Origin: an uncultured bacterium
GTDB taxonomy: Bacteria; Patescibacteriota; Minisyncoccia; Minisyncoccales; JAQTVQ01
Length of the DNA stretch: 32,638 nucleotides
NCBI GenBank assembly: GCA_903839905.1
Contig: CAIMDX010000069.1
Span: forward strand, 1-32,638
Direction: 5' to 3'
Shown here: positions 17,062 to 20,586 of the stretch, piece by piece
Layout: each line of letters opens with the position of its first letter
Numbering within the stretch: the first letter of the stretch is position 1
Notes under the pieces: generated by a model
Databases searched by the model: none
What the model was told of the DNA's origin: nothing
The model's input: the letters and a program-made list of their open reading frames with translations, nothing else
Position numbers and translations under genes: made by a program

Positions 17062-17422
17062 TTATTTTTTTGATTTTTCCAAAGCCATTACCCTTTTTTC
17101 CAAAAGAGCAAATTCATCCCGGCCAATTTTCTCCTTCAATTCACCCTGTTAAATAAAACCTTTCTAGGTTTTAGACTGCCGAGCAGTCTATTTAACAGGG
17201 TAAATTGCGGATTAAATGTAACTCATCAAAAACGAGCTCAAATTTATAATCCACCTCATTAAATCTTTCGTCAACTTCTTTTCTAAAATCTCCGATTTCT
17301 TTATCTAAAGCCTTATGTCCATCTAAAACAAAACCAAGCTTGGAGTCAACATCTTCTAAAATCACTCCAAAATGGCGTTCAGAATCAGGGAGTTGCTTTT
17401 TATTTATTTTCCTTTTAATCAT
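17062..17422 (-). pseudogene. Short coiled-coil protein gene interrupted by a 61-bp palindromic element
   Basis: Upstream part MIKRKINKK...FDELHLIRN, then element (stop TAA inside), then in-frame-after-excision ELKEKIGRDEFALLEKRVMALEKSKK*; aligns gaplessly with the paralog LHIIKDDLKEKADRCELKVLERRIEILEKR. Confidence 0.8.
17143..17203. mobile_element. Candidate non-autonomous palindromic element (three-way junction) inserted in a CDS
   Basis: 13-bp perfect outer stem ACCCTGTTAAATA/TATTTAACAGGGT (17143-17155/17189-17201); inner hairpins AAACCT-ttct-AGGTTT and AGACTGC-cga-GCAGTCT. Confidence 0.75.
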
Positions 17423-17890: not shown

Positions 17891-18003
17891 CCCCGTTAGA
17901 AGTTTGGCCTTGGCCTTTGTTATTATAAAAGCCTGAAGCCGTAAAGCGGCTTCGCCTTTAAGCTTTTCAATAAAGGGAAGCTCTCTTTGAACTTCTAACG
18001 GGG
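17891..18003. repeat. Extended palindromic element with 14-bp perfect ends CCCCGTTAGAAGTT/AACTTCTAACGGGG
   Basis: 17891-17904 versus 17990-18003 exact inverted repeats; interior pairs CCTTT/AAAGG, TTATT/AATAA, AAAAGC/GCTTTT, GAAGCCG-taaag-CGGCTTC. Confidence 0.8.
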
Positions 18004-18115: not shown

Positions 18116-19537
18116 TTACTTGCGAGACCTTGGCGCAAACTCAAGCCCGATAACAGTTGTGTTTACATCGTTCGACCCGCCATTGGAATCATCATATTCC
18201 ACGCTAAGAGGCCTGACTGTCCAAATAACGCCGTCCATGACAAAAAAAGCATAATCATCTTTCAGGTCATAGTTATATGTTCCTATTCTTTGCCCTGATA
18301 AATCATATTCTTTGATTTGTTTATTTTCATAAAAATAAAAGCTATTTCCGTCCTGAGAAAATATCAATTTTAAATTATATCCAGTTTTTGAAGTAGGAGA
18401 AACCGTTAAAGTAATCGTGCCAAGAGCGTTTAAATTTTGATCATATTTATAAATCTTTTTGCCGCCATCTTTGTCAAATAGTGAAAAAAGGTAAATATAG
18501 GTACCATCTGTGGCCAATGGTCCATTTTCATTCATGTCTATTGTCGCACCGTTGCCGCTTAGAGATTGAAAATTGCCAGCGCCACCGAAGCCGCCGGCGC
18601 CAGAATAGCAGCTTCCAGAATTGCCCGCATATTTTGAACGAGTAGTAGAAGAATATTTTTTGTTTCCTATAATCACGCTTCCGCAGTATCCTCCAGTGCC
18701 AGAGCCACCTTCATAAACTAAGTTCCCGAATTCATTTTTTGAAAAAACAATAGACCCTCTGGCTAATTTTTTACTAACAGGGTCCCACCCGCTTATATAC
18801 CAAGGATCGTTTCTATCCATACCGGTCCCTATTAACGATCTTTCAAGAAAGATAAAATCATTAGATGAAGAACCCCAGGTTCCTCCCGACCCGCTCCCCG
18901 CTCCGATCACTATATTATTCCAAGTCGTGGAATTGGCGCAAACAGAGTTGACGCAAAGGGCAGTGGCCGAATTGATCGTGCCCGTGGCGTTGATGTTGCC
19001 TCCGACAAAAAGGTTTCTAGTGATATTTGAATCGCCCTTGAAATATCCTGCGTACCCTCCTCCTGTGCTGTTTTGTTGCTCTGCGTATAAAGCTGAATTA
19101 GCAGAGTTGGCGTAAGCTGCGATCGCGTCGCCAGAGCTGCCAGTGCCTCCAACTGCTAATTTGGCGAGAGGCGCTGTTGTGCCAATACCGACATTGCCGG
19201 AATTGGCCTGAATGATTGTATTGGAAGTATTGCGATAGCCAAGAAAAAGACTTCCGCTTTTCACATTCAGTTCGTTAGTGTAAATACTGATGCCTCCGGC
19301 ACTGTCCACCACTAAGCCGTCAGCGCCAGCAGGAACATGAAGACTACCTCCAAGAGTCAGGCTTCCTGCCTTGGTTTGGGCTATATTGCTCGTATTGATG
19401 GGCGCATCCACGCTCGCGGGCATGGTGCCGGACGGCTCTGACCAGGCCAGGGTAAAATATCCGGCTGAAAGAGATAGAACTAAAACTGCGGCCAGAAGAG
19501 GCAAGGTTGCCGAAGAGATGTGAAAAAGTTTAGACAT
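18116..19537 (-). CDS. Modular exported surface/fibre-like protein, paralog of 89..2143
   Basis: 473 aa; nearly identical signal region, shared NINATGTINSATA(I/L)CVNSVCANSTTWNNIVIGAG cassette and MNENGPLATDGT(S/Y)IYLFS C-terminal region. Confidence 0.82.
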   Translation of the reverse strand: MSKLFHISSATLPLLAAVLVLSLSAGYFTLAWSEPSGTMPASVDAPINTSNIAQTKAGSLTLGGSLHVPAGADGLVVDSAGGISIYTNELNVKSGSLFLGYRNTSNTIIQANSGNVGIGTTAPLAKLAVGGTGSSGDAIAAYANSANSALYAEQQNSTGGGYAGYFKGDSNITRNLFVGGNINATGTINSATALCVNSVCANSTTWNNIVIGAGSGSGGTWGSSSNDFIFLERSLIGTGMDRNDPWYISGWDPVSKKLARGSIVFSKNEFGNLVYEGGSGTGGYCGSVIIGNKKYSSTTRSKYAGNSGSCYSGAGGFGGAGNFQSLSGNGATIDMNENGPLATDGTYIYLFSLFDKDGGKKIYKYDQNLNALGTITLTVSPTSKTGYNLKLIFSQDGNSFYFYENKQIKEYDLSGQRIGTYNYDLKDDYAFFVMDGVIWTVRPLSVEYDDSNGGSNDVNTTVIGLEFAPRSRK

Positions 19538-20484: not shown

Positions 20485-20586
20485 CCCCATTAGAAATTTT
20501 AGATCAAAAAATATTCCATAAAACCATTATTCTTAGAAAAATAATAGCTTTATCAATATTTTGGAATGTAAACTTTCTAACGGGGT
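20484..20586. repeat. Extended palindromic element abutting the tmRNA 3' end
   Basis: ACCCCATTAGAAATTT ... AAACTTTCTAACGGGGT, interior ATTCC/GGAAT and ATTATT/AATAAT pairings. Confidence 0.7.

Follow-up and report, generated by a model that had tools for sequence, protein, structure and literature searches.

A palindrome inside a small coiled-coil gene

The window, i.e. the whole stretch of 32,638 bp that was analysed, originates from an uncultured bacterium of the Patescibacteriota (hereafter the source genome) and contains on its minus strand a small coiled-coil gene which is interrupted by a palindrome of 61 bp and lies next to an intact paralog. The features are outlined in Table 1. The minus-strand open reading frame ends ..DELHLIRNLPC-stop, and its stop codon lies inside the palindrome. 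As single-stranded DNA the palindrome folds on either strand into a three-way junction consisting of the outer stem CCCTGTTAAAT/ATTTAACAGGG, which becomes longer when the flanks are included, and two hairpins. The fold energies for the two strands amount to -22.4 and -24.8 kcal/mol (z about -9), and none of 200 shuffles was as stable. The palindrome had no Rfam match at the gathering threshold. An integron attC site, whose folded form starts with RYYYAAC (5') and finishes with GTTRRRY (3'), was considered and rejected because the core sites stand in the wrong order, the palindrome reading GTTAAAT ... ATTTAAC from the outside in.

Table 1. Features of the interrupted locus and of the related elements (window positions, or loci of other genomes).
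Feature	Position or locus	Strand	Basis
Inserted element, 61 bp (CCCTGTTAAAT ... ATTTAACAGGGTAAA)	17144..17204	+	Absent from ortholog L015; family consensus ends
Target-derived flank TTCA, insertion 3' of TTCA	17140..17143	+	Empty site CTCA^TTACGG in L015 (caret, insertion point); TTCA conserved at -4..-1 in the family
Left terminal arm CCCTGTTAAAT	17144..17154	+	Fold; identical arms in the family
Inner hairpin 1, AAAACCT(TTCT)AGGTTTT	17155..17172	+	Fold
Inner hairpin 2, AGACTGC(CGA)GCAGTCT	17173..17189	+	Fold
Right terminal arm ATTTAACAGGG	17190..17200	+	Fold; identical arms in the family
Element-borne 3' tetranucleotide TAAA	17201..17204	+	Conserved in the family; absent from empty sites
Interrupted coiled-coil gene, 5' portion (76 aa, its C-terminal residues and stop codon contributed by the element)	17192..17422	-	Open reading frame; protein search
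3' remnant of the coiled-coil gene (ELKEKIGRDEFALLEKRVMALEKSKK-stop), severed from its start	17062..17142	-	Protein match 17065-17151
Intact paralog, 98 aa	17442..17738	-	33% identity
Second, different palindromic element (CCCCGTTAGAAGTT...AACTTCTAACGGGG, 113 bp)	17891..18003		Ends resemble the terminal repeat of GIY-YIG element L307
Further copy of the second palindromic family, 101 bp, imperfect arms	20485..20585
Arm-matched GIY-YIG elements, Patescibacteria	L281 (one mismatched pair), L295, L298
Arm-matched GIY-YIG elements, Desulfobacterota	L322, L324, L325
Arm-matched GIY-YIG element, Cloacimonadota	L326
Arm-matched GIY-YIG element, Omnitrophota	L328

An intact ortholog of 99 amino acids (..LRLIRNELKEKVGRDEFALLEKRV..) was found at locus L015 of genome G036, which belongs to another genus. 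In the blastn alignment L015 matches the window up to position 17143 and resumes at 17204 on adjacent L015 bases, with nothing in between. Similarly, a protein search placed residues 1-73 of the ortholog at 17204-17422 and residues 71-99 at 17065-17151. The coiled-coil protein, for which no Pfam family was obtained above the cut-off, was detected by protein search in 26 of the 247 genomes of the order. It is split only in the source genome, which bears the palindrome, and the homologs listed for the 25 other genomes are unsplit. Since an intact ortholog lacks exactly this segment and the split homology is confined to the source genome, the palindrome is an insertion with defined ends in the coiled-coil gene. 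This copy destroyed the gene; the neighbouring paralog is intact.

These results allow the claims of the initial annotation, which was made from the sequence alone, to be judged. It had placed a three-way-junction palindrome at 17143-17203 inside a coiled-coil gene, and both position and fold were confirmed; these bounds and 17144-17204 are equivalent choices, because an A stands both at the start of the segment and directly after it. The claims that the element supplies the stop codon and that exact deletion of 17143-17203 restores the gene held as well, the latter matching the gap-free junction of L015. So did the statement that no target-site duplication fits cleanly: a duplication of AATT was rejected, as it requires an empty site 4 bp shorter than that of L015. 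The reading as a mobile or mobilised insertion is supported by two empty sites (L015 and G198, see below) and by copies in many genomes and phyla. The attribute "recent" is not supported by any dating, since ortholog and interrupted protein share 68-79% identity at the protein level and no empty site from the same species is at hand. Of the checks suggested at the time, the search for the empty site in relatives and that for further copies succeeded, and neither of the outcomes named as refuting (relatives sharing the palindrome at this locus, or no other copies) occurred. The likely parent, an element coding for a GIY-YIG nuclease, had remained unidentified.

Three further observations concern the surroundings. 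The second palindromic family in the window (CCCCGTTAGAARTT ends, about 100-113 bp) has at least four copies in the source genome, the two in the window and those at G000:C20:37971-38073 and G000:C17:7152-7261. The middle of the window is flanked by two related surface-protein-like genes (MSKLFHISSATLPLLAAVLVLSLSAGYFTLAW...) at 89-2143 and 18116-19537. At L120:1564-2403 (G000:C24) and other loci, Y1 (RAYT-type) transposase genes bear their own small hairpins, e.g. ATGGTCAAGGCC-N-GGCCTTGACCAT, both within the gene and at its ends.

A dispersed family and its insertion rule

Searching with the pattern CCCTGTTAAA-N(22-50)-TTTAACAGGG revealed copies in 31 of the 247 genomes of the order, among them five in the source genome, 30 in G118 and 11 in G050, while the reversed control pattern gave no match in the same 247 genomes. 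Furthermore, at least 120 matching stretches were found among 85,488 species genomes of several phyla, a lower bound as the scan stopped there. Named matches fall, among others, into Nealson-, Nomura-, Kaiser-, Moran-, Niyogi-, Taylor- and Berkelbacteria and into Omnitrophota, WOR-3, Cloacimonadota, Desulfobacterota (Desulfobacterales), Bacteroidota and Myxococcota; viral contigs yielded a single match. The palindrome thus belongs to a dispersed family spread across several bacterial phyla. The copies share the arms CCCTGTTAAAT/ATTTAACAGGG, whereas the two inner hairpins vary in sequence yet stay self-complementary, so that the arms are better conserved than the inside. Exactly two hairpins were obtained for 107 of 151 distinct inner sequences (median z -2.8), and these sequences are entirely different from each other. 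In some copies, from WOR-3 and elsewhere, the inner sequence does not obviously form two hairpins.

Pairs of palindromes in G118, at L246 and elsewhere were considered as possible ends of a longer transposon. They were dismissed as chance neighbours, since the enclosed genes are ordinary ones (HU, DNA polymerase III delta-like, outer-membrane protein). At loci L094-L113 of G118 the palindrome is one component of a composite repeat, about 200 bp long, built from CCAGATA-hairpin-CACTGG modules and a terminator-like hairpin and amplified in many intergenic regions. At the WOR-3 locus L171 palindromes lie within ATCTGCGTTAATCTGCG-type tandem repeats, which are common in that genome.

For the analysis of the flanks 173 distinct copies were considered; the G118 composite repeats were excluded because their conserved flanks belong to the larger repeat. 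Without any prior orienting, TTCA..TAAA (or its complement TTTA..TGAA) was the commonest flank pair, present in 85 of the 173 copies, and symmetric TTTA..TAAA flanks were found in three. Once the copies were oriented, positions -4 to -1 and +1 to +4 proved strongly conserved, with no conservation beyond 4 bp. With TTCA..TAAA kept fixed, either of the two inner hairpins can be the one nearer to TTCA.

Which of the two tetranucleotides belongs to the target follows from the empty sites. Comparison of the L015 empty site with the filled sequence TTCA[CCCTG..GGGTAAA]TTGCGG of the window demonstrates that TTCA pre-existed at the coiled-coil locus and that TAAA was brought by the element. The second empty site was provided by a copy in the start of a prmC-like gene of G198, which is missing in congeners. 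Here AGCCAT^TGAATTTC became AGCCAT[TTTACCC..GGG]TGAATTTC, which reads TTCA^CCC..GGGTAAA on the other strand, so the two loci obey one insertion rule on opposite strands. A third site, inferred from the tandem repeat itself, is that of the WOR-3 copy L171:4733 in GGACGCAGATTAA^CGCAGATTAACACG, where the rule holds with TTAA as target. Evidently, the element inserts 3' of an existing TTCA (or TTAA), adds TAAA and generates no target duplication, as established by two empty sites and one inferred site; at neither L015 nor G198 was a target-site duplication present. The G198 copy (L061:1501-1556, i.e. G198:C24:8404-8459) lies in frame, and the open frame is kept with about 20 extra residues.

Full-length GIY-YIG elements with the same ends

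In G019 two arms lying 285 bp apart enclose an open reading frame of the GIY-YIG type (Pfam 2e-15). This frame runs MYYAYILRSGKDKKLYTGYTNNL..KNRLKSYLTG-stop, and its final codons TTA ACA GGG TAA are at the same time the right arm. Full-length elements of about 280 bp were found in four phyla (Patescibacteria, Cloacimonadota, Desulfobacterota and Omnitrophota), encoding nothing but a single-domain GIY-YIG nuclease of about 84 amino acids, whose last residues and stop codon (TAA or TGA, both were seen) are supplied by the right repeat. These elements share both the terminal repeats and the flank rule of the palindromes. The coding elements carrying the palindrome ends are L288, L281, L295, L298, L322, L324, L325 and L328. 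For L323 (Cloacimonadota) the right arm is present and no matching left arm was found, and more distant GIY-YIG genes carry other repeats, e.g. ACCCCGTTAGATA and CCCCGTTAGAAATT.

The two arms of an element are either identical to those of the palindrome or compensatorily changed on both sides (ACCCTGTGAAAT/ATTTCACAGGGT; GCCCAGTGAAAT/ATTTCACTGGGT). When 14 arm pairs are compared, changes on both sides affect nine of 12 base pairs, and pairing holds for 98% of the cells; as this set was partly chosen for complementarity, it illustrates the covariation and does not test it. In a fairer comparison, 30 of 71 GIY-YIG frames lie between inverted repeats of at least 10 nt, as against only 5 of 176 other frames of the same loci, and at least two of these five are themselves reads of GIY-YIG elements. 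Within a single genome, full-length copies resemble each other as far as the ends of the repeats and differ outside them (L393/L394, 80%; L384/L385, 98%).

Minimum-energy folds were calculated for three full-length elements, and all three gave the palindrome-type three-way junction, with the stems AATTTTAAAT/ATTTAAAATT and AAGATTTGAG/CTCAAATCTT or close variants and the reading frame in the loops. A 150-bp intermediate from Moraniibacteriota keeps those stems with short loops and folds into a three-way junction as well, so that intermediate deletion forms do exist. A set of 21 proteins shows conservation of the catalytic-type residues (the GIY and YIG tyrosines, Arg and Glu). Among solved structures, the UPF0213 members PDB 1zg2 and 1ywl come closest (E 4e-4), and the literature describes the Slx1 family as related small GIY-YIG proteins which cut branched DNA.

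The source genome contains three GIY-YIG genes, none of which has the palindrome ends. A close nuclease (E <= 1e-28) was found in 16 genomes, four of them among the 31 palindrome-bearing ones, where about two would be expected by chance; co-occurrence of nuclease and palindrome at the genome level within the order is thus weak and not significant. As a separate observation, the single-domain GIY-YIG genes at L265, L267 and L276 have no palindrome-type repeat and are directly followed by tRNA-like sequence (gggcccgtagctc / gcccccatagctcaattg).

Origin and movement of the palindromes

The insertion, the dispersed family, the target rule and the ends and fold common to palindromes and full-length GIY-YIG elements are established by the data. 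The best explanation for them, to which we assign a probability of roughly 0.7, is that the palindrome is a non-autonomous (MITE-like) derivative of tiny GIY-YIG elements with the same ends and was moved in trans by their nuclease; derivation and nuclease action are inferred. According to this proposal, the short palindromes would derive from full-length elements by loop deletion. The nuclease would cut the branched (cruciform or three-way) DNA formed by the element as well as the TTCA target, after which the freed ..TTCA 3' end would pair with the TTTA/TAAA end of the element and then be extended. Palindromes would move in trans with nuclease from full-length elements. Such a copy step would account for one flank being target sequence that merely resembles TTTA, with A always at -1, for the exact TAAA at the other end, for the two orientations in which the inside is found with respect to the target, and for the ending of full-length frames in TAA or TGA according to orientation. 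As a point against, a strictly one-strand mechanism would not give both hairpin orders without extra inversions. That the nuclease drives movement remains an inference without biochemical or population evidence of movement, and mobilisation of the palindrome by the enzyme of its partner is likewise inferred, without a movement assay. Circles, polymorphic sites and the junction sequence CAGGGTAAA-CCCTG would be possible traces of movement. The absence of a matching nuclease from the source genome could reflect loss of the nuclease, arrival of palindromes by transfer, or another enzyme.

A bolder reading, for which we consider the odds to be balanced, treats the elements of about 280 bp as an autonomous class whose single-domain GIY-YIG nuclease is the sole transposition enzyme, acting on the three-way-junction fold and inserting 3' of TTCA; the class would cross phyla and shed palindromes of 45-65 bp, the present one among them.

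One rival explanation is mobilisation in trans by a Y1 HUH transposase of the IS200/IS605 or REP-associated type, with the GIY-YIG gene as a mere passenger, which we regard as unlikely. Insertion 3' of a fixed tetranucleotide without duplication, the hairpins and the different conserved 3' tetranucleotide resemble IS200/IS605 chemistry, and Y1 genes occur in 33 of 60 relatives, with one in the source genome. However, at the Y1 loci that were examined CCCTGTTA is missing and the palindromes are different ones (e.g. ATGGTCAAGGCC), the inside of the palindrome is found in either orientation with respect to the target, and the distributions do not match: G025 contains seven palindromes without any Y1 gene, whereas none accompanies the 15 Y1 genes of G009. 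A matching GIY-YIG element is likewise missing from G025. An unknown or host enzyme (e.g. replication or template switching at hairpins, or an unrecognised transposase) moving both palindromes and GIY-YIG elements is similarly improbable. In its favour, many palindrome-bearing genomes, the source genome included, now lack a matching nuclease, and another arm-recognising enzyme could move both kinds of element, given that the arms of the palindromes are better conserved than the inside. Against it, the full-length elements consist of ends and nuclease gene alone, the catalytic residues are conserved across phyla, and past nuclease loss or lateral transfer would account for the absence of the nuclease too.

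A homing-type process, in which the GIY-YIG protein does no more than cleave empty sites and the copies are spread through repair by recombination between homologous flanks, appears very unlikely. GIY-YIG is a homing nuclease fold, the full-length elements are selfish nuclease genes, and GIY-YIG proteins are known in CPR rRNA insertions (PMC11270868); yet the copies occupy unrelated sites sharing only 4 bp, whereas homing requires homologous flanks, and GIY-YIG insertions with low site conservation, seemingly outside homing, have been reported (PMC11270868). Finally, an ordinary terminator or structured intergenic hairpin absorbed into the gene, conceivable as stable hairpins are frequent between genes, is all but ruled out by the empty sites with exact junctions (L015, G198), by the occurrence over several phyla of copies which agree in their arms and 4-bp flanks and twice lie inside coding genes, and by the absence of an Rfam family.

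The palindromes can be compared with known systems. Like the bacterial MITEs Correia, ERIC and RUP (PMC10969869), they are short, non-coding and dispersed, have terminal inverted repeats, enter genes and share their ends with a longer coding element; together with the empty sites, these criteria for a MITE are met. In contrast to MITEs, the family generates no target-site duplication, its presumed partner encodes a GIY-YIG nuclease and no recognised transposase, and two inner hairpins are kept as a three-way junction. We therefore use the label "MITE-like" and not MITE, because the criterion of a target duplication is not fulfilled and proof of the enzyme is lacking. IS200/IS605 and REP/RAYT elements insert 3' of a short fixed sequence without duplication, possess hairpins and have non-autonomous relatives. 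The palindromes share the insertion 3' of a short fixed target and the lack of duplication, but have no adjacent Y1 gene, Y1 genes adjoining other palindromes instead, and do not keep a single orientation relative to the target. The full-length members alone have the nuclease fold of a homing endonuclease element, and the one conserved homologous site of such elements is lacking. Rickettsia palindromic elements also lie inside protein genes, sometimes in frame as the G198 copy does, and to our knowledge have no nuclease partner. Double-hairpin elements and GC clusters of fungal and yeast mitochondria (PMC4478555) are mobile short hairpins for which intron endonucleases were proposed as helpers; they differ in being organellar and are not known to include an element that has their ends and encodes its own nuclease, and the GC clusters are flanked by the direct repeats AG/ACT. 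UPF0213/Slx1-like single-domain GIY-YIG proteins were described as stand-alone host genes (PMC1564403), whereas here the gene ends in the terminal repeat of a multicopy element.

In CPR rRNA genes GIY-YIG proteins have been reported only in non-intron insertions, with low insertion-site conservation, and the rRNA genes of the same hosts also hold uncharacterised insertions of less than 200 bp without a reading frame (PMC11270868). In that report the GIY-YIG insertions are described for rRNA genes alone and without any connection to dispersed palindromes, and neither "inverted repeat" nor "palindrom" appears in its text. They may possibly be elements of the palindrome family. In their relevant passages, neither the survey of the GIY-YIG superfamily (PMC1564403) nor the review of bacterial MITEs (PMC10969869) mentions such elements, and no published description was found among the 5.39 million open-access papers searched, subscription papers and preprints lying outside the scope.

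The shared ends suggest an undescribed way for DNA to jump. If the nuclease indeed drives movement, a protein of about 84 amino acids would be one of the smallest enzymes of transposition, GIY-YIG would have to be counted with the enzyme classes that move DNA, and the full-length element, with the nuclease as its transposition enzyme, would represent a new kind of element. Because the junctions are exact, the mechanism can be put to the test in a standard laboratory host. The family may also explain the non-intron GIY-YIG and the short insertions without a reading frame in CPR rRNA genes. A multicopy palindrome family of Patescibacteria and at least six other bacterial groups, which breaks or lengthens genes, gains a likely parent and an insertion rule.
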